Source of the DNA: Apoderus coryli
Taxonomy: Eukaryota > Arthropoda > Insecta > Coleoptera > Attelabidae
Assembly (NCBI GenBank): GCA_911728435.2
Contig: OU452198.1
Span: 8,094,001-8,158,000 of the forward strand
Reading direction: 5' to 3'
Length of the DNA stretch: 64,000 nt
In this document: piece after piece, positions 6,101 through 54,354 of the stretch
How the letters are laid out: each line of letters begins with the position of its first letter
Numbering within the stretch: the first letter of the stretch is position 1
Notes under the pieces: generated by a model
Seen by the model: the letters and a program-made list of their open reading frames with translations, nothing else
Databases searched by the model: none
What the model was told of the DNA's origin: nothing
Translations under genes and position numbers: made by a program

Positions 6101-6134
6101 GGGTGGTCCAGGTTAAACGTCATTAACTTTGACA
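6101..6134 (+). repeat. Terminal motif of a TACAGGGTGG element
   Basis: ATATACAGGGTGGTCCAGG followed by TTAAACGTC is an element left end. The reverse complement of 8150-8172 (GTAGAGGGTGGCCC) is a plausible partner, which would make the RTE fragment below an insertion inside it. The internal match is too short to be sure. Confidence 0.4.
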
Positions 6135-6135
6135 G

Positions 6136-7044
6136 GTGATAGAACACATTCGTGTGGAAAAAGGTGTCAGACAGGGTTGCAATCTAAGTCCCCTTCTATT
6201 CAACATTTACGGGGAATGGATCATGAGAAGAGCGTTAGAAGACTGTAATGGAGGTATAACTATGGGAGGCAACAAAATCAGTAACCTTCGATATGCCGAT
6301 GACACTACCCTGATTGCAGCATCGAAGGAGGAGCTCATTGAACTTTTGAAACGAGTGGAACGGTTTAGTAATGAGGTTGGCCTAAGTATCAATAAAAACA
6401 AGACCAAAATTATGATTGTAGACAGAGTAAATAACAATCAACCTGAGACAAAAAGTATGAATCATATAGAAACGGTCCACAAATTTGTCTACCTGGGCTC
6501 CTTAATATCTAATGATGGTGGCTCTAGTGATGAAATAAAACGCAGAAGTGCAGTGGCAAAGGAAGCAATGGTAAAACTTTCAAACATCTGGAAAAGCCAC
6601 GACATCTCAATTAACACCAAAATGAGGTTGGTCAGAAGCCTGATCTTCTCCATTTTTCTCTACGGGTCAGAATGCTGGACACTGAAACAGTCGGATAAGA
6701 ATAAAATAGACGCTTTCGAAATGTTCTGTTGGCGTAGAATGCTGAGAGTGTCGTGGACCGAAAAGAGGACCAATCAATCCATTCTGGATCAACTAAAAAT
6801 AAGGAAGAGACTACGCACAATAGTAGTAGAAAAAATTGCCAAATTTTTTGGCCATGTAGTGAGGAGGAAAGGATTAGAAAGACTCACTTTGGAGGGTTGG
6901 GTAAATGGCAAAAGATCCCGAGGAAGGTCCCCAACAAGATATACAGACCTCATAACGAATATTACAGAGGAAAACTTAACACAAACATTCAAATTGGCCG
7001 AAGATCGACAACAATGGAAAGCCATTACAAAAGATAGCCCATGA
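6136..7044 (+). pseudogene. RTE-clade LINE reverse transcriptase, 3' half
   Basis: An uninterrupted frame of 302 residues from the middle of an RTE-type endonuclease/reverse transcriptase. GVRQGCNLSPLLFNIY, then the catalytic box LRYADDTTLIA, then VYLGSLISNDGGSSDEI, then the RTE-typical thumb and tail blocks (YGSECWTLKQ, RRMLRVSWTEKR, HVVRRKGLE, GKRSRGRSPTRY). The first half (AP endonuclease and RT fingers) is missing, as usual for 5'-truncated copies. The frame opens on GTG within coding sequence, so no real start exists. After the stop comes a short purine-rich 3' end (GAAGAAGAAGAAC). This copy has no visible stop or frameshift and looks younger than its neighbours. Confidence 0.88.
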
Positions 7045-10065: not shown

Positions 10066-11364
10066 TATTGGGTCTGCCAGATAACTTTTTTTTTTTTTGA
10101 AAATGCTATAAAAGAAAAACTGCTGAATATTTTCTCAAATTTCTTTTTTTATTTGAAAGTACAATCCTTCCCGTTAATAATGACAAATAATTTCATTCAA
10201 ATGGCTGCCTCGGCTGGCCATGCAGTAGCCTAAACGATCGGTCCAATTTTTAAGCACATTATCGATTGTGTGCAGCTGTATGTCACCAATGACTTCACAA
10301 ATATTGTCCTTTAAAGCGTCAATTGTCTCTGGCTTGTCGGCGTAACACTTATCTTTGACGGCACCCCACAAATAATAGTCCAACGGTGTCAAATCGCAGC
10401 TCCGAGGTGGCCAAACGACATCAGCTCTGCGGCTGATAATGCGATCTTCAAAAACAGGGCGCAAAACATCGAGTGTAGCGTCGGCTGTGTGGCACGTAGC
10501 GTCGTCCTGTTGAAACCAATATCCTCCTCTTCAATTTTTGTGAACAAAAATTCGTTCAACATGACCCGATAACGATCGCCATTGACTGTAACGGCCACTC
10601 CTTGCTCATTTTCGAAGAAAAATGGCCCAATTATGCCTCCGGACCAAAATCCGCACCAAACAGTGACTCGTTTTAGGTGCATCGGCTTTTCAATGTATGC
10701 GTGCGGCTTTTCTGTGCCCCAAATGCGACAATTTTGCTTGTTTACATATCCGCCAAGATCAAAATGAGCTTCATCTGAAAAGATTATTTTTTTGGCAAAA
10801 TCGGCATCTTCTGTAAGTCGATCGCAGGCCCACTGAGCGAAGCGAAAACGCATTGGATGGTCAGTTGGTTTCAACTCCTGAACCAATTGGACTTTGTATG
10901 GCGTCATACCAAGGTCTTTATGCAAAATTCGTCTCAATGATGTCTCCGAAATGTTCAATTGTTGAGACCGACGGTGAATTGATGTTGATGGCGCTTCACG
11001 CACACTTTCTGCCACAGCAGCAATATTCTCGGGTGTACGCACTGTTTTTGGCTTTTCACGCTTTGGTTTATCGATGAGGATGCGAGTTTCTTGCACTTTT
11101 TTCACGAGATAACGAACATACGGAGCTGACGGTGCTTCTCTTCTTCCAAAATCCGTACGCAATTTTCGCACACATTCTGCAACATTACCATGATTTTCAA
11201 AGTAATGTCGCAATATTTCCCAGCGTTGTTCAAGCGTATACACAATCATATTCGTTCAGCGGAAGGATAAAACTAATTATCTGTCAAATCAGACATGAGC
11301 TAAGTGTTACCCTTCACGAAATAAGCACTAGTTGAAAAAAAAACGTTAGATGGCGGACCCGATA
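10066..11364 (-). mobile_element. Nearly complete mariner element
   Basis: About 1.3 kb with matching ends. The left end reads TATTGGGTCTGCCAGATAAC plus a T-run. The right end, read on the minus strand, is TATCGGGTCCGCCATCTAAC plus a T-run. TA is present at both outer borders, consistent with the TA target duplication of Tc1/mariner elements. The transposase lies on the minus strand and has one frameshift. Length and structure fit a full-size mariner, making this the best preserved DNA transposon in the window. Confidence 0.9.
10174..11249 (-). pseudogene. Mariner transposase with one frameshift
   Basis: Starts at ATG 11249 (MIVYTLEQRWEILRHYFENH) with the N-terminal helix-turn-helix, then a second DNA-binding segment (TSIHRRSQQLNISETSLRRIL). 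The catalytic domain has IIFSDEAHFDLGGYVNKQNC (first Asp), VTVWCGFWSGGIIGP, WFQQDDATCHTAD (second Asp) and WPPRSCDLTPLDYYLWG (third Asp). I count about 36 residues between the last two. A single-base shift just before FQQDD, near 10525, splits it into two frames (10389-11249 and 10174-10464), so it cannot make an active enzyme as it stands. Both halves otherwise lack stops. Confidence 0.9.
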
Positions 11365-15199: not shown

Positions 15200-15287
15200 T
15201 ATATCTGTCAATACTTAAAATAATCCTTGACAAATAGTATTCGTGTGATAACTTCTAATATAAGTCAAACATTTGATATTCAAGTCA

Positions 15288-15711
15288 GAGACCTCCCAGG
15301 CAGCCGATATAGGAACTGTTGTTCACTCGGCGTACTACCAACGATTAAACTAGATGTCGCCAAACACATCCTTTTACATCTCTGTACCGTGTGGGGTATA
15401 TACCACATTATTTACGAGAGTTTGGCTGTCAACTACTGACCGATCACCACTGATGAGTCGTGGATCGACGAAACGGCCGTCTGGTGAAAGTATAGTGGTT
15501 GACAGACAAACTCTCGGATTTTAAGTATTGTTTTGTTAAACAAGCCCATTTCAAATATATGCGATCCCGCTTAAGGGAGTATCGGCGCGTCTATGTGTTG
15601 GTAGTTGCTTTATGGGGTCAGAGACCTCCCAGCCAGCCGATATAGGAACTGTTGTTCACTCGGCGTACTACCAAGATTAAACTAGATGTCGCCAAACACA
15701 TCCTTTTACAT
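15288..15711 (+). mobile_element. Retrozyme-like hammerhead repeat element
   Basis: GAGACCTCCCAG... begins at 15288 and again at 15621, so a unit of 333 bp is followed by 91 bp of a second copy that differs by a few bases. The insert is bordered by TTTGATATTCAAGTCA (about 15272-15287) and TTTGATATTCAGTCA (15711-15725), a duplicated target. The unit contains a complete hammerhead ribozyme at 15415-15517. Tandem units of this size with a type I hammerhead and target duplications are the defining features of animal retrozymes, non-autonomous retroelements thought to move with help from Penelope-like elements. No protein is encoded. Confidence 0.85.
15415..15517 (+). ncRNA. Type I hammerhead ribozyme
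   Basis: The core CTGATGA is at 15450-15456. Stem II is GTCG/CGAC around a TGGAT loop (15457-15469). GAAA is at 15470-15473. Stem III is AC/GT around GGCC (15473-15480), and the cleavage triplet GTC ends at 15481. Stem I is TCACCA (15444-15449) with TGGTGA (15482-15487). After an internal loop it continues as CGAGAGTTTG-CTGTCAACTACT (15415-15437) with AGTGGTTGACAGACAAACTC (15494-15513). Every core nucleotide of the hammerhead consensus is present. Predicted self-cleavage is between 15481 and 15482. The very short stem III is typical of the retrozyme/Penelope and satellite-DNA hammerheads. Confidence 0.88.
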
Positions 15712-15881
15712 TTGATATTCAGTCAAGAGAGAAGATACGTATTATCCATCGGTTGCTAATAATAATTACTTATTAAACACAACAAAAACAGATGATATTA
15801 TTTATTAGTAACTATTATTACCACAGAATTAAACATAGTAATACTATAGGTTACTACTAATTAATTATAGGAAATCAATCA

Positions 15882-25546: not shown

Positions 25547-25589
25547 CAACTAATTTCGGTTGTTCCAAAGTTTACATTATTTTACTTTT

Positions 25590-26714
25590 TATTTATTTTA
25601 TTTGTTAGACTTTTCAAAAGCTTTTGATACTATTAACCATAAATTGTTGGCAGCTAAATTAAGGTTTTATGGATTTGATAATTCATCACGATCTTTATTT
25701 GAATCTTATTTATCCTCAAGAAAACAGAGAGTGTCTTATGGGGGCCAGTGTTCCAATGTTATTGATGTAACCTCTGGAGTTCCCCAGGGTTCAATATTGA
25801 GACCTCTTTTATTTTTAATATACACCTCTGATATTTTGAGATCCTTAAATTATTGTAAAATTCAGGCCTTTGGTGACGATACTCAAATTTATTATTCGTT
25901 TCCCACTAATAATTATATGGAAGCCCAAAAGAACGTCAACGCCGATCTTCATGTATTGTACACCCTCTCCAGGAATCATAATCTAAAGTTGAATCCATCA
26001 AAATCAAACCTGCTACTGTTTAGCAATAGGAATGATGTAGATTTCCTCAAAGAAAATTTTAGAGTTGTAATAAATAGTAATGTTGTCCAATGTGTCAAAT
26101 CCGCAAAGAACTTGGGTGCGAATATGGATATTTCATTGAGATGTCGGGAGCACGTGAAAGGGTTACTTAGAAAGTCATACGTTACCTTAAAACTCTTGTA
26201 TCCAAATAAACATATTTTGGGCCGGGGGTTGCGTCAAACACTATGTGAAGCATTGGTTTTATCTACCTTTAATTATTGTGATTTTGTTTACGGTCCTCTG
26301 TTGGACAGCATGGATCGTGAACGCATACAAAGAGTTCAGAACTGTTGTACTAGATTTGTAAAGGGTCTTAGAAAGTATGATCGCGTGTCCCAGGTAATCC
26401 ATGATATGGTCTGGCCGAGAATGGAGTATCGTCGCCTTCTGCATCTTGGGAATTTTGTTATTCATATAACGTTTGATTCAGATGCTCCTTCTGATATTAG
26501 AGAAAAACTTGTACCTAGGAGTGATATTCATGATAGAGATGTTCGACACATTGACCGCCTTACCTTACCACATCATCGCACATCGCTTTTTTAGAGGGGT
26601 TTTACATACAACGCCATAAAGCTCTATAATACTATTCCTAAGGGGTTCCGGATATTGAGTCCAGCTAAGTTTAAAGTTAATTTTAAGAGATACCTTCTTA
26701 ATCGATACCAGTAA
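25590..26714 (+). pseudogene. LINE reverse transcriptase (Jockey/CR1-like), nearly open
   Basis: A frame of about 330 residues: LLDFSKAFDTINHKLL (finger/palm Asp), then RKQRVSYGGQCSNV, TSGVPQGSILRPLLFLIYTS and the catalytic box QAFGDDTQIY. The box is normally (F/Y)ADD, so Gly replaces Ala. Then HNLKLNPSKSNLLLF, a LGANMDISLRC block and the thumb (FNYCDFVYGPLL, RIQRVQNCCTRFV). A TAG at 26593-26595 interrupts the frame, which then continues GFTYNAIKLYNTIPKGFRIL to the true end at 26712. The 5' half (endonuclease) is absent. One stop and one unusual active-site residue are its visible defects. Confidence 0.9.
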
Positions 26715-35070: not shown

Positions 35071-36433
35071 ATTAATAATAATAATAATAATACAAACTAT
35101 ATACAAAAATAATAACAAGAAAAATAAATGAACACATCACAAAAAACAATATTTTAGCAATTGAGCAGAACGGATGCAGAAGGGGTGCCAGAGGTAGCAA
35201 GGAACTACTGGTCGTGGATAACATCGTGGTCAGACAAGCTCAGCATAAACAGAGGTATATTCCCGTCGCTTGGATTGACTATAGGAAAGCATTTGACTCT
35301 GTGCCTCATTCCTGGTTGGTCCGAGTCATGAAATTTTATAAAATTGAGCCACGAATAGTGACCTTGCTAAAAGATTTAATGTCGAGGTGGAATATACGAT
35401 TGATTCTTCAAAACTCTTGCCGGACAGAGCCAATAAGGATTAAAACTGGAATATTTCAGGGTGATTCACTGAGCCCTCTTTGGTTCTGCTTAGCATTGAA
35501 TCCACTGAGGGATATATTAAATCGGTCAAATTACGGCTTTAAGATTGACCAATTCTCTTGTTTGTCGCATCTTTTGTATATGGATGACCTAAAGCTCTTC
35601 GCAGGAAATCGATAGCATTTGCAGAGCATGCTAGAACTTGTATGTGCATTCACAAAATCGATTAAGATGCAGTTCGGCTTGGAAAAATGTGCAGGGGCTC
35701 ACTACATTAAAGGTAAATTATCACAAGAACCTAATATGCGACTAATGGATAATGTTGAAATAAAGACTTTGGATGAACCCTATAAATATTTGGGCATGCT
35801 GCAACGAGGAAAAATAGATAACAACACTATGAAACAAAAAGTCACAGATAATGTACTTGAGACGGGCCACAAAGATCTCCAATACTCACCTACCTTCAAA
35901 AGAAAAGTTTATCGGAATCAATACCTGGGCTGTCCCTGCGCTGAGTGATACTTACGGAATACTTGGCTGGTCTCCCACTGACCTTCAAAACTTAGACAGA
36001 AGTACACGAAGAATACTTACGAAACACAGAATGCACCATCCCAATTCCTCAGTAACCAGGCTTTATCTCCCTAGGTCCAGTGGTGGCAGAGGATTGTGCA
36101 ACATCGAGGAAACCTGTAACAAAGAGAAACAATATGTCATCAACAAAGATACACCATTACACCGTACTAATGTACTCATCGTTGCATAACAATTGAATAA
36201 CAACACAAATTTTGACTGTATCGTCGGTGTCGCAGAAAAAATTCCTTTGTTCAATCTGTATTACTTCTGGGGCTCCAGGACAGCATCGCCGACGATTGCT
36301 GCAATACAGTTGTCTTGGGAACTACCCGAATAATCCGTAGAACTCTGGTTAAGCCTTGAATTTCATAATTCCGGTCACCTAGAATAACGGAATTAATCGT
36401 CAAGAAAAAATAATAATAATAATAATAATAATA
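35071..36433 (+). mobile_element. Dong/R4-like LINE copy inside a TAA repeat
   Basis: (AAT)n at 35071-35091 and (TAA)n at 36411-36433 bracket a 1.3-kb 5'-truncated LINE whose 3' end is an A-run (GTCAAGAAAAAA). Dong elements are known to insert into TAA repeats. The same arrangement holds for the relic at 17767-18400. Confidence 0.78.
35104..36189 (+). pseudogene. Dong/R4-like reverse transcriptase, frameshifted
   Basis: EQNGCRRGARGSKELLVVDN, then IPVAWIDYRKAFDSVPHSWL (first catalytic Asp), TGIFQGDSLSPLWFCLALNP and the catalytic box SHLLYMDDLKLFAGN. The YMDD form is typical of this LINE group. A stop (TAG, 35613-35615) follows, then KMQFGLEKCAGAHYIKG and EPYKYLGMLQRG in the next segment. After another shift comes GINTWAVPAL, DLQNLDRSTRRILTKHRMHH and LYLPRSSGGRGLCNIEE. 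The C-terminal endonuclease is not recognised before the 3' end. At least one stop and one frameshift; not functional. Confidence 0.87.
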
Positions 36434-39656: not shown

Positions 39657-40162
39657 AATGCAGAATTAAGCAGTGAATTGCCAACCGAACCCATTCTTTC
39701 ACATTTTGAATCCTTATTCTTTGATTAATGTTTTGACCTTCTTGATCTAATGAAGACTTACAATCCCATGAAGCATTGTGACCTTGAGGATCAAACTAAG
39801 ATTTATTACACTTAAACAAGGCATGGGAATAGCAGCTTTTCACACTCTTCACATCCACACATTGTACCGGGTGTCCCATTTTGAATATCTCTGTCATTTT
39901 TCTATACTTTTTAAGTATAAGCAGCAAATAATGCAGAATTAAGTAGTGAATTGCCCATTCTTTCACATTTTGAATCCTTATTCTTTGATTAATAGTTTGA
40001 CATTCTTAATCTAATGAAGACTTACAATCCCATGAAGCATTGAGACCTTGAGGATCAAACTAAGATATATTACACTTAAACAAGGCATGGGAATAGCAGC
40101 TTTTCACACTCTTCACATCCACACATTGTACCGGGTATCCCATTTTGAATATCTGTGTCATT
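39657..40162 (+). repeat. Tandem duplication, ~274-bp period
   Basis: 39657-39902 and 39931-40162 are near-identical (AATGCAGAATTAAG, ACATTTTGAATCCTTATTC, GACCTTGAGGATCAAACTAA, CATTGTACCGGGTRTCCCAT). The second lacks the CAACCGAAC segment. Recent by its high identity. Confidence 0.88.
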
Positions 40163-41574
40163 TTTTTTAGATAGTAAGTTGCGGATGTCAATGCTACTTT
40201 TTCGTGAATCTAAAGATGCCGTTAACAAAATTTTCATAGCCCTTTTAGTTGATAAGAGACAAGGCTAAAAATGTCACATTTTCAAGCATCCCTCGTATTT
40301 CAACTACATTCAGTAGCGAATGTAGTGAAACATAAAACTCCTCAAAAATGTTGTCATGACTTTAATAATTTATATACTGACATACTGATTATATTTATTT
40401 ATGCTTTTCAACATAATATTTTCGTCAAAACATTCCGTATTCCATTCATCGTTTTATAACAAAATCTTATTCTAAATTTCCGTATAAATCATACATTACG
40501 TGAGAAATATGAGCGTCCTTCCTAATTTCTAAATGAATCAAAATCTAGGGGAGGTGTGTTGGTCAAAGTATCCAGCGGTTGGGGGATGGGAGTGTAAGAA
40601 TAAGCTAACTGAAAGGAAAGGGTTCGGCAGTGATTAATAACCAAAAATGGCACACATATACAAACTATAATATTACGGGTAAAGAGTTGAGGCCCAGAAG
40701 GGAAATAGCAAATTGACGATGTCAATGTCTTGATGGCCATCATTTATCTAAACGATAACTGGAACATTTACTTCTTGTTATACTGACTGCTCTTAGGATG
40801 ACTCTCGGAATATTGCTTTAAAATGATGTGATAAATATGGTATAGAGAGGGGTTGTTTTGTAGATAGATTCTCTCGAAGTAAAAATTAAAATTCCAATAT
40901 AATCCATTAATTAAGTTTCATAATTTAGAACTGGTTTCGTTGGCAGTACGTTTTGTTTATTAAGTGCTATTTAAATATTCTCCAAATCATAGTAACTCTG
41001 CTATATCTTAGATATAAGTACGTTGCTTTTTTAACTACATCTAATTACACTTAGCCGCAAAAATAACGCACAACCAAAAATTATGCTCAATTTCAAAGTT
41101 GATTTTCTCGCGAACCGATAAATCGATTTTGATCATTTTTTTTTGAACTGTAGCTTTTTTCTTTGGTAATTGCACTGTGATAGGATTTTTTATTCAGACT
41201 TCAGTTTTAGGCTTGTACAGGGTGCAAAAATAATAATAGTTTTTTAACGTTAAATTTGAGACACCCTGTAGGGAGCATATCAACAACAACAGATGGTATG
41301 GTGAAATCATACTGTAGCCTCATGTTTTCTAAACATTTTCTTTTTTAAATTTCTCTGTTATCTGTAATATCAAAGAACCTTATCAATTGATTATTAAGAC
41401 AAATTTGTTTCTATAACAAACAAATTAATTGACAGATCTGAGAAATACACTTCTCAGGGATGCAGTAGAATATATTGAAAAAGTAAAAAATAATACTGCG
41501 TTTTTATTTTTTATACCCTTATCAACTGATCTTAGGCATAGAACATGAAATTGAGATTGAAATTTTTGTGCCTT
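40163..41574. other. No gene; one tiny TE-end pair
   Basis: TACAGGGTGCAAAAATAATA (41216) and TTGAGACACCCTGTA (41262-41276) lie only 60 bp apart and may be a minimal MITE. Elsewhere nothing recognised. Confidence 0.4.
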
Positions 41575-50285: not shown

Positions 50286-51317
50286 TTAATAGAAAGACAT
50301 AACGACTAGACAAGGTATTACTTTGTAGTGTTTTTTGTATTATATACATCTTTATTTTCACAATATTTTATTTTAGGCCCTGAAGAAGTTTATGTTTAAT
50401 AAACGAAACGTTAAAGTTTAAGTTTTTTATTTATTTGTCCAATTCCTATAAGGTTCTATTTTAAAAGCGATTTGTTTTTCTTTGAAATATTGAGTTAGTT
50501 GTTCTGTATTTGGAACGGTGTTAAAATAGTCAACATGAAAATTAATTTGACTATACTGAAAACGTTTGAGGGCATGAAAAAGTGCAAAAATCTGATCACG
50601 TTATATTCGGTTTCCTACAATTTTTTCTCAACCTTATGATATTTCTAATTTGATTACCCCTAAATAGACACCCCAAACGACATTTTCCCACAAAATAAAA
50701 TTCACAGTATGTATATAGAATTATTATATTTGGAATATGTTTAAACAAAAACCACAGCTTATAAAATATAAAACTAACACTAGATCAGAGAAATAGCCTA
50801 TAATAAATTCTTTTTGTACACGTTCTCTCACATATACCCGGTTTTAGGGGAAAATACCTCACCTACATACAAATTTTAGTATACCCTAACCTATGCTAAC
50901 AACAAATATTTATTGCCGACAACCAATAAATATTAATAAAATATGCAAACACAGGTTTTTTCTGTATTATCTTATATTCGTTCACCTGTTTCGGTACAAT
51001 ATAGGTACCTACACATCATGTAAATATGGCGGAAAGAAACTAATTTCATGACCTTCTAAAAAATGCCCACTTCCTCGAAAATTCAAAACAAATATTCATG
51101 CTATTTGGGTTTACACCTGTAAATCTCGCAGTTCAGACTAAAAATAAAATGTATCCAATTTGTAGGTCTTTGTGGGTTCTGTAAAATAATATTATTTTTG
51201 TTGGAAACAAACTCTCTCATCCACTAAATTTTTAACTTAATTAATCTTCCAATTATTACAGGACAGGAACAACACAAAAGTCAATAATCAACCCACATAC
51301 CGGGTGGTCCATTTATC
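50286..51317. other. No gene; one CTGAAGA cassette
   Basis: CTGAAGA (50380-50386), a GTTTAT...AATAAAC hairpin and GAAAC (50405-50409) form another ribozyme-like cassette. Otherwise AT-rich, nothing recognised. ACCGGGTGGTCCATTTATC at 51299 is a TE end. Confidence 0.4.
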
Positions 51318-51334
51318 TTGAGACATCCTTATAT

Positions 51335-52203
51335 AATGAAGTCCTATATAAGCCAAAGACAACAATTCGTCTACTACAACGGCTTTAAATCGGAAACTTA
51401 TTGTGTAAGATCGGGTGTTCCACAGGGATCAAACCTTGGACCTTTTTTGTTTCTCCTATTTATTAATGATCTTGCGGAATCCTTATTGTGTTCCAGATTG
51501 TTGTTTGCGGATGATGTCAAGATATTTTCGCCTATAAATACTATCAAAGATTGTGTGAGATTACAGGATGATCTTCGTGCAATAGGGGAATGGTGTGATA
51601 CTAACGAGCTTGCCCTCAATTCATCGAAATGGAAATTGGTTACGTTTACGCGAAAAACAGAATGCACTGTGTTTAATTACGCCGTAAATCATGATATCAT
51701 TCCTAGATGTGATTCCGTCAGGGACCTTGGTGTTACGTTTGATAATGCATTTGCGTTCTCTGAGCACATACTGAGCATGGTTTCGAGGGCCGCTAGGGCG
51801 TATGGCTTCTTAGTGAGGAATTCTAGGTCTTTCGTGGATATAAGCACGTTGAGAACTTTGTATTCTGCGTATGTGCGCTCCAAATTGGAATACTGTTCGA
51901 TTGTTTGGTACCCATATTATAGTTGCTATAACCAGATGATTGAGAAAGTTCAACGCAAATTCTTGAAATTTCTGTATTTTAGGTTAAACGGTTCTTATCC
52001 GCAGCATGATATATCGACTGTATATTTGTGTGATGTATTTCAGTATCAGAGTTTTGGGTTTAAGGAGACAACTGTGTAGTGTTAAGTTTCTTTACGGCGT
52101 CTTGCACAATAAACTGGACGTACCTGAGCTTTTGCAGAGACTAAATTTTTTGGTTCCCAGAGTTAACTCTAGAGGCAGTTCTACCTTTTATAATGACAGA
52201 CCA
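51335..52203 (+). pseudogene. LINE reverse transcriptase (Jockey/CR1-like)
   Basis: SYISQRQQFVYYNGFKSETY, RSGVPQGSNLGPFLFLLFIN, the catalytic box SRLLFADDVKIFSPI, NELALNSSKWKLVTF, RDLGVTFDNAFAFSEHI and the thumb block SKLEYCSIVWYPYYS. The frame stays open until 52079. A frameshift near 52040 moves the end (LGLRRQLCSVKFLYGVLHNK) to the next frame. The active site is intact, but the 5' half is missing and the 3' end is cut by the MITE at 52204. Confidence 0.88.
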
Positions 52204-52634: not shown

Positions 52635-53142
52635 TACAGGGTGAATTATTGGGAGGAACCAGATATGCCAGATTTTTAAGTCCGGACCTGTAAATCAATT
52701 CAAATTATGGTATTTACCATACTGGAGCACAGTGTGTGTCGCTTCTGTCTATTTTGAAGATTTCTTTTTAATAACTAAACATTATTATACAGTAAGATAC
52801 TTCATTATTGCCAGTTTTCAATTTGGCTCTAAATTGAATCTTCAATTGGAAATGTGAGGTGAGTGTAACAAAAAATTCAAATACCCAGGTCTAACTGTCT
52901 ATTTATGCCATCTGAAAAAATTTTATCACATTCTTGAAAAATCATATACAGGGTGAAGTGTTGAATATGAAGCAGTCCCACAAATTTTCTCGAAGACGAA
53001 CCTGGATTTTCTCAATTCTGAATATGTCAGTTAGTTGCCAGGCACCAATATACATTTTAATAAAAAAATGAGATAAATCGACTTAATCATTGAAAAGATA
53101 TGACGAAACATTGTTTTGGGAAGATCCATAATTCACCCTGTA
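52635..53142. mobile_element. 508-bp MITE
   Basis: TACAGGGTGAATTATTGGG at the left and ATAATTCACCCTGTA at the right (53128-53142) are inverted. Another TACAGGGTGAA occurs inside at about 52949, suggesting a nested or duplicated end. No coding. Confidence 0.72.
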
Positions 53143-53248
53143 TAATAATAATCAAAACAAGGAGAGATTTTTTAATGGTCATTTGATAATCCTCTAACGT
53201 GCCTCTACTTATGGTAGAAGTATGTACAGTTCCTCGTGACTCACCCTG

Positions 53249-53510
53249 TATTGGACAAACCTCACAATGGCTTAAACGCCGCATTATACAGCATAAGAGT
53301 GACTGCCGCATAGGCAAACATTCTTGTGCAGTAGTGGATCATCATATAAAAACCGGTCACATCTTTGAATTCAGGAATGTAAAAATTTTGGATCAATCAA
53401 ATAACTATAAAAATAGACTGTTTCTCGAAATGTGTCATATTTATAGAGAAACTAATAGCATTAATTACAAATCTAATATTCAGTTGAGCAACATATATTG
53501 TAACATTTGA
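53249..53510 (+). pseudogene. Penelope-like GIY-YIG endonuclease end
   Basis: CIGQTSQWLKRRIIQHKSDC, then AVVDHHIKTGHIFEFRNVKI and RLFLEMCHIYRETNSINY. This is the C-terminal GIY-YIG nuclease segment (Arg of LKRRI, H-TGH, E-M) of Penelope-like retroelements, ending at 53510. It begins directly after a TE end (CGTGACTCACCCTGTA, 53235-53250), so the rest of the protein was cut off by an insertion or deletion. A CTGATGA-hairpin-GAAA cassette lies 340 bp downstream. Confidence 0.82.
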
Positions 53511-54354
53511 AAGGGCATTTAATTTAATTATTTTGTTGATACACCCTGTATCTTTAAACCTTTTGATAATGCCCCTATTTGTAATTTTCTGCATATACTA
53601 GTGTTAAAGTAAAATAATAAATAACAATAAAAAAAAAACCATATATTCTAGTCGATACCCAAAACTATTCATTTTATATTTTAACTATAAATATTTTAGA
53701 ACTTGACTGACTGAAATTGTTAATGTGTTTGGATTGTTTTACGTTTTGAAATCCTCTAATCTGTAAGCGTTTATTTTATTTCTTATGTGTTTTTGCAGTT
53801 TCATCATTTGTGTAATGGTATTAAGGCTAATTTGTAATTTTTGTAGTTTACTCCTGATGATGACGGAAATAAACGTCGAAATATCGAGTCAATAAAGAAA
53901 AAAAAAATACTTATTAATTAATCACAGACCGAACACCTGATACTCCCGTTTCCAGTTATATATATTTTTGATTCCGATAATAATTTGGGTTCATTTCTCT
54001 GTTTTTTGTTCTTGGTTGAGGTTCAACAGTTTAAAAATCATCGACTAATTATATGATTTTAGATAATTATTCAAATGCCATTATTTATTTCTTCTTTGTT
54101 TCAACGTTTCGACAAGACCACTTTTCTGAGATAGAAAGATGTTCCATATTTTGTTGAAAATACTAAATTGATAACAGACTAACGAACGTACCTACTGATC
54201 GTCATTCGGAAGTAAAAGTTAATAATTCCTCATACCAAATATTTAATTTTAATTTTTTTTATACTTAAAGAAAAAAGTAGTAAATGTTTCATTTGGTAAA
54301 CATTTTTGCACATTTATAGCAAATAAATCATTCATAATATCTTTACACTTGTGA
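53511..54354 (+). other. Penelope 3' region with ribozyme-like cassette
   Basis: ACACCCTGTATC at 53541 is a TE end. At 53854-53881: CTGATGA, T, GACG-GAAATAAA-CGTC hairpin, GAAA, in the plus orientation of the Penelope relic. The remainder is AT-rich with nothing recognised. Confidence 0.45.

Follow-up and report, generated by a model that had tools for sequence, protein, structure and literature searches.

Metazoan non-LTR retrozymes, as described by Cervera and de la Pena (2020, PMC7229834), are short tandem units with a type I hammerhead ribozyme and a GC content below 50%. They encode no protein, are bounded by target-site duplications of more than 4 bp, and occur in genomes that also hold Penelope-like elements. 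How animal retrozymes return to DNA, and which enzyme carries them, are matters of proposal in PMC7229834, PMC7761336, and PMC8969392. The element described here, from the beetle Apoderus coryli, has all of these features, and its 333-bp unit, present in many copies, lies within the retrozyme size range of ~170-400 bp. It differs in forming head-to-head inserts with two fixed sites, of which we found no mention in PMC7229834. The satellite-like retrozymes of newt and axolotl in the same report have a comparable unit of ~330 bp and a palindromic stem III tetraloop expected to act in dimers, as here, but belong to another host group and have another sequence. Dolichopoda pDo500 (PMC2837043) is likewise an insect hammerhead repeat with compensatory stem changes, although its unit is ~500 bp and it was reported as satellite DNA.

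Penelope-like elements provide a second point of comparison. One such protein, studied in purified form, has been reported to act on both strands of AT-rich DNA, cutting and extending each, and to begin at two sites within the RNA (PMC11167929). These sites are mirrored in the genomic tail, and the report saw no difference between strands in the start site used. Inverted terminal copies, duplications of 8 to 10 bp, and a 31-bp tail on one of the copies have also been described (PMC3846280). As far as these two sources describe them, Penelope-like elements share with our element the inverted terminal copies, the apparent cutting and extension of both strands, two internal start sites, AT-rich targets, short duplications, and a hammerhead-like motif. 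They differ in that they encode a reverse transcriptase and an endonuclease, whereas the retrozyme has no protein; their start sites are neighbors, whereas those of the retrozyme are far apart in sequence; and their ribozyme is a minimal form, whereas ours has the full core.

The element in the window

The window is the whole stretch of 64,000 nucleotides that was analyzed. The original prediction placed in it a retrozyme-like element made up of a 333-bp unit and 91 bp of a second copy, starting at 15288. The element is real, a hammerhead-bearing 333-bp unit plus partial second copy at 15284-15711, and the unit size stands; the start lies four bases earlier than claimed, at 15284, and the second copy is 95 bp long (Table 1). 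Positions 15284-15341 and 15617-15674 are 98% identical at a spacing of 333, and 15343-15379 and 15675-15711 are 100% identical at a spacing of 332, so that the second copy carries one substitution and one missing base over its 95 bp. A 14-bp duplication around the element, absent from the prediction, is separated from it on the left by a single extra A at 15283, and the last four bases of the element (ACAT) are common to the element and the right copy of the duplication. The element has a GC content of 45.6%, against 30-34% in four flanking stretches of 500 bp, and the unit alone 45.3%, below 50% as in metazoan non-LTR retrozymes. As predicted, the locus appears to encode no protein: no ORF of at least 100 aa overlaps 15284-15711. 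No LTR-like termini were seen in the mapped inserts of the same family. These features support the identification of a retrozyme-like element whose type I hammerhead is complete and, judged by its sequence, of a new member by family of the metazoan non-LTR retrozymes.

Table 1. Features of the retrozyme-like element and of the Penelope-like element in the window
Feature	Position	Strand	Basis
Left target-site duplication, 14 bp, ACATTTGATATTCA	15269..15282	+	
Complete 333-bp unit, family A, numbered u1-u333 (u1 = 15284)	15284..15616	+	Self-repeat comparison; mapped to 39 more loci of the genome
Predicted 5-bp hairpin directly 5' of start site 1, lying in a block that families A and B conserve	15353..15370	+	Fold
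Start site 1, u87-u103, usual end u95/u96 = 15378/15379	15370..15386	+	35/68 outer ends
Hairpin holding the hammerhead, with long stem I	15415..15516	+	Repeat comparison, fold, covariation
Hammerhead_1 match (RF00163)	15444..15487	+	Rfam
Hammerhead core; cleavage predicted from consensus at 15481/15482 (u198/u199)	15450..15481	+	Rfam, pattern search
Palindromic stem III, ACGGCCGU / ACGGCCGT, able to pair intermolecularly	15473..15480	+	Sequence itself
Predicted 6-bp hairpin directly 5' of start site 2	15528..15543	+	Fold
Start site 2, u265-u281	15548..15564	+	28/68 outer ends
Partial second copy, u1-u96, ending at start site 1	15617..15711	+	Repeat comparison, insert mapping
Right target-site duplication, 14 bp, ACATTTGATATTCA	15708..15721	+	4 bp overlap with element end
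Penelope-like protein, C-terminal part (GIY-YIG endonuclease region), decayed	53190..53510	+	2/3 relatives with PF01541
Hammerhead-like pattern 3' of the Penelope-like ORF	53854..53890	+	Loose pattern search

The window also holds a decayed mariner-like transposase (10174-11255) and four different reverse transcriptase ORFs (6133-7044, 25554-26594, 35091-36189, and 51288-52079). With its mariner-like, several non-LTR, and Penelope-like types, it looks like a transposon graveyard. A tandem repeat at 39690-40165 (264-bp unit, 1.8 copies, 96%) also consists of a unit and a partial second copy. It has no Rfam match and is thus not taken as a second retrozyme, and it might be another partial-tandem element.

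Copies and families in the genome

The assembly of the same genome comprises 428 Mb in 129 contigs, and the window corresponds to positions 8094001-8158000 of its contig C1. Allowing up to 3 mismatches, the ribozyme core pattern matched it 3014 times (1504 + 1510), with 0 matches for a reversed control; these matches take in family A, to which the window element belongs, family B, and others. A genome search with the element itself gave 1305 candidates, of which 40 were scored, with 137 matches among them. The loci read were 40 from this scored list (window included), a sample biased to copies like that of the window, and 20 from the list of exact cores on contig C1, picked by ribozyme core alone. 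The copies expected genome-wide by the original prediction are indeed there, numerous and in tandem units, with a conserved core motif, which in the scored-list sample is kept in 97 of 104 complete hairpins.

Family B, found at 10 of the 20 C1 loci, is a sister family; its unit measures 336 bp and has an overall identity of 61% to that of family A. A third, more diverged hammerhead variant with an exact core was seen at L087:1447-1572; it is 81% identical to family A and 83% to family B over short stretches, and it was left out of the family counts. Two loci of contig C21, L076 and L077 (11.14 and 12.32 Mb), carry the same insert, its flanks matching too, as reverse complements of each other, either an inverted duplication of the region or an assembly artifact, and L077 was dropped from arm, variant, and later counts.

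Candidate copies in metagenomic data were rejected. One IMG/VR contig sharing a 16-mer with the unit and two bacterial MAG contigs sharing a 19-mer gave 19-25 matching bases by BLAST, which is about chance level. Five IMG/VR viral contigs (L002-L006), four of them of identical sequence, all carry a type I hammerhead pattern, and the ribozyme is the only thing they have in common with the window element.

Insertion footprint

Among the 39 sampled inserts of family A, 29 consist of two arrays in opposite orientation that meet 5'-to-5', with the minus-strand array on the left, the plus-strand array on the right, and outer ends of the RNA-3' type. The outer ends are far from scattered: 63 of 68 fall in two 17-nt windows, which we call start sites 1 and 2 (Table 1), and 5 lie elsewhere. 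The two-sided inserts combine site 1 with site 2 in 24 cases and site 2 with site 2 in one, and an end is unclassified in four. Were the sites chosen freely, one same-site insert or fewer among 25 would have a probability of 8e-7. The C1 sample agrees with this pattern. In its nine family-A loci (without L087), 14 of 15 ends lie at the two sites and all 6 two-sided inserts are mixed, and in its 10 family-B loci, 14 of 14 ends lie at the homologous places. Only 4 of these 10 family-B loci are two-sided, three of them mixed and one a site-2 pair. The original prediction could not see these two-sided inserts with two fixed start sites, which are the main feature of the family. We recognized no description of such retrozyme inserts in the literature searched, from which subscription papers were mostly absent, and the putative two-sided, two-site use of an RNA circle, not found described in the literature examined, is what we regard as new.

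The one-sided inserts of family A (n = 10, window included) end at site 1 in eight cases, at site 2 in one, and at neither in one, and on this distribution site 1 looks like the primary site. The window copy belongs here. Its left end is u1 plus one extra base, and start site 2 is not used as an end; it is best read as a one-sided form that would have been primed at site 1, copied for 1.28 turns, and closed by joining u1 to the target without a second array. It contains one hammerhead, and release of a unit circle needs two in the same orientation, so the window copy should not release one. The possibly circular RNA that had been predicted from this very locus is thus unsupported, and with its single ribozyme the copy more plausibly arose from a circle than gives rise to circles. 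The sources would be multi-unit arms, which reach 2254 bp, such as the arm of L056 with seven hammerheads on the same strand.

Of the 39 family-A inserts, 26 are bounded by exact direct repeats of 10-15 bp. This count does not include L044 and L048, whose repeats fall within an AT run or within the element itself. Repeats of at least 10 bp were found at 6 of 9 family-A and 3 of 10 family-B loci in the C1 sample. The dinucleotide AA occupies the second and third bases outside the duplication, on either strand, in 28 of 52 cases, against a local background of 0.20 (P 5e-8). At the 5'-5' joints, computed without L044, L069, L075, and L077, the two sides overlap by a mean of 2.9 bp, compared with 0.67 expected at random, and the overlap is at least 3 bp in 14 of 27 joints, compared with 5% expected.

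Template of the two arms

The arms of one insert resemble each other more closely than they resemble the arms of other inserts. Leaving out arms of <60 bp here and in the hairpin and variant counts, we found that the arms within an insert agree in 147 of 307 non-consensus comparisons, with a difference of 0.69% (26 inserts), whereas arms of different inserts, compared for a random half of pairs, agree in 769 of 21275, with a difference of 2.06%. Loci L043 and L074 show zero differences between arms over 2062 and 2412 comparisons, with 22/22 and 21/21 of the non-consensus comparisons shared. At positions covered at least twice in the 39 inserts, a non-consensus base is common to every unit of the insert at 61 sites, confined to one unit at 170, and present in some but not all units at 13. 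Turn-to-turn difference within arms (1.02%) is greater than the difference between arms, because diverged inserts weigh heavily in it. Arms run through the cleavage site 111 times, and none of 66 arm 5' ends lies within 3 nt of it, which together disfavor a linear cleaved template. Shared variants and read-through are most simply accounted for by a circle, judging from the inserts as they now stand, although later gene conversion could mimic part of the one-circle pattern. We lean somewhat toward a stronger form, in which a single hammerhead-made circle would be copied by two reverse transcriptases simultaneously, each 3' end of the same staggered cut going to its own site.

The twin priming of LINE-1 is established and yields head-to-head inverted parts. 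An unlikely alternative, though one to be taken seriously, is that a LINE copied a linear multimeric transcript, read through from a genomic array, in this manner; young arrays with near-identical units could yield a transcript that resembles a circle. Two fixed sites, one each per insert, are however not expected from twin priming at variable internal positions; the variants shared by the arms would require one molecule or identical molecules, and neither the cleavage site nor a common 5' end marks where the arms stop.

We consider it quite improbable that the arrays are ordinary satellite-like DNA, remodeled by inversion, unequal crossing-over, and gene conversion, in which the ribozyme is a passenger. 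Single-copy mutations outnumber shared ones (170 against 61), unlike in homogenized arrays, the same two outer end points recur in two families, and the inserts are dispersed, 26 of 39 with flanking duplications, even though tandem units with inverted arms are substrates for conversion and hammerhead satellites are known (PMC2837043).

Predicted circular fold and start sites

Folded as a circle, the unit has a z score of -6.2 relative to 100 shuffles. Families A and B share a predicted circular fold with a ribozyme arm and a distal arm, in which 80 pairs are standard in both families, 15 have both bases changed, and 10 are non-standard in one. Both sites are found in the two segments connecting the arms. 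Site 1 precedes the core by 71 nt, site 2 follows it by 75 nt, and the distances between them round the circle are 177 and 156 nt. A small predicted hairpin precedes each site in both families, and the positions and hairpins are conserved in spite of the low overall identity of the two. The tail end of the local Penelope-like element has the same arrangement of a predicted hairpin and then unpaired bases, and its short end has no such hairpin. A sequence motif common to both start sites was not found: 170 of 300 shuffles were as good, and in a second test 334 of 1000 were for family A and 201 of 1000 for family B. Simple patterns gave no Pol III B box in the unit of either family and no A-box-like match on the plus strand of either; two A-box-like matches lie on the minus strand of B.

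A compact fold of this kind for a 333-nt circle would also suit a viroid-like RNA that spreads from RNA to RNA and is only occasionally captured as DNA, and RNA-to-RNA copying of retrozyme RNA has been raised in review (PMC7761336). We consider this very improbable here. The 3014 cores in one genome and the dedicated start sites fit a genome-resident retroelement, and the CTGANGA motif occurs on the plus strand of the element only, so that the other strand has no ribozyme.

The hammerhead ribozyme

The Rfam Hammerhead_1 match scores 33.8 bits with an E value of 1.1e-6 (601 bases searched). The covariance search, proposed as a check of the original prediction, thus gave a divided answer, with a significant E value but a score 0.2 bits under the curated threshold of 34, which is why a scan of the whole window at the gathering threshold came back empty. 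A loose hammerhead pattern has two matches in the window (15450-15481 and 53854-53890), compared with 0.18 expected, and 2 of 100 shuffled windows had at least two. The 114-nt hairpin at 15409-15522 has a minimum free energy of -54.5 kcal/mol (z -8.2; 0 of 200 shuffles equally stable). The hammerhead fold, at -45.8 kcal/mol, is 8.7 less stable than this unconstrained minimum under energy rules that ignore tertiary contacts.

Rfam and the sequence bear out both the complete type I hammerhead and its 4-bp stem II as originally described. A stem III of 2 bp closed by a 2-nt loop, as had been drawn, is sterically infeasible. Instead, 15473-15480 is a perfect palindrome in which A-U and C-G pairs close a GGCC loop, and its sequence predicts a weak hairpin within one molecule and 8 bp between two. 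A similar amphibian motif is described as weak by itself but efficient in dimeric form: axolotl hammerheads in which one pair carries a palindromic tetraloop cleave poorly alone and better as dimers (PMC7229834).

Stem covariation was assessed on 13 of 29 listed hairpins and the window, leaving out junction-spanning hairpins, near-duplicates, and the variant L087. Between families A and B, u157-u204 has hardly changed (92-100% per 12-nt step), and the core stretch is their most conserved part. Outer stem I, by comparison, has 9/26 and 11/26 identical bases on its two strands, yet it still pairs. Altogether, 29 pairs of stem I are standard in both families, of which 2 have one base changed and 12 have both; shifted registers of stem I give 0-2 double changes (two sequences only). 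Compensatory change in other copies, the absence of which would by the original prediction's own terms have counted against it, is therefore present. A nonfunctional hammerhead motif, whether arisen by chance or decayed, as a score just below threshold and a different minimum-energy fold might suggest, is hardly credible given a core kept in nearly all hairpins and most conserved between families and 12 double changes that keep stem I paired.

Penelope-like elements

A decayed Penelope-like element occupies 53140-53965 of the window, and its genome relatives are 75-94% identical, some of them head-to-head, with short and tail 3' ends. The ORF at 53190-53510 has itself no Pfam match, and the hammerhead-like pattern at 53854-53890 has no Rfam match. 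Of 1132 candidate relatives, 40 were scored and 15 stretches were read; by eye, 9 of their 3' ends are short and 4 are tail ends, and the two corresponding start sites are ~37 nt apart. A head-to-head insert with one short and one tail end (L099) is the sole such case among the 15, and another copy (L098) has one end elsewhere. The copies read are decayed or partial only. In sequence, the start sites of the Penelope-like elements and of the retrozyme are not significantly alike (best of 12 comparisons, 20 of 1000 shuffles).

Two hallmarks of the Penelope type are nonetheless displayed by the retrozyme inserts, the two-sided head-to-head layout (29/39) and discrete internal start windows (63/68 ends). 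By this analogy, the footprint fits Penelope-like machinery, and the helper is most likely a Penelope-like element. Two points speak against the analogy: the wide spacing of the retrozyme sites, and their different use by the two strands, which has no counterpart in the observations of PMC11167929.

Proposed mechanism and implications

Taken together, we consider it probable, on the layout of the inserts, that one circular RNA is primed by both nicked target strands at two start sites, likely with a Penelope-like helper. Multi-unit transcripts would cut themselves at the hammerhead, the cutting probably being done by ribozyme pairs, which the palindrome of stem III makes probable. The resulting 333-nt circles would be closed by a host ligase, as in published retrozymes. 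An endonuclease would cut both strands ~13 bp apart at an A/T-rich site, and the two free 3' ends may then prime reverse transcription on the same circle, one at site 1 (u96) and the other at site 2 (u273). By the footprint, these sites flank the base of the ribozyme arm, one on either side. Each reverse transcriptase would go round the circle anywhere between less than once and nearly seven times, and the cDNA ends would be joined, often via a few matching bases, leaving the head-to-head arrays between target-site duplications that make up the footprint.

The insert footprint provides evidence for a one-circle template and names two start sites on it. It also ties retrozyme insertion to the two-strand, two-site priming reported in vitro for a Penelope-like protein, and young natural inserts offer material on how an RNA circle might be copied in both directions into a chromosome. 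If the reading with two reverse transcriptases is true, this would be rolling-circle reverse transcription in both directions, from sites on opposite sides of the waist of the circle. The retrozyme would then exploit Penelope-like machinery as a two-headed circular parasite whose start sites are the only signals recognized in trans.
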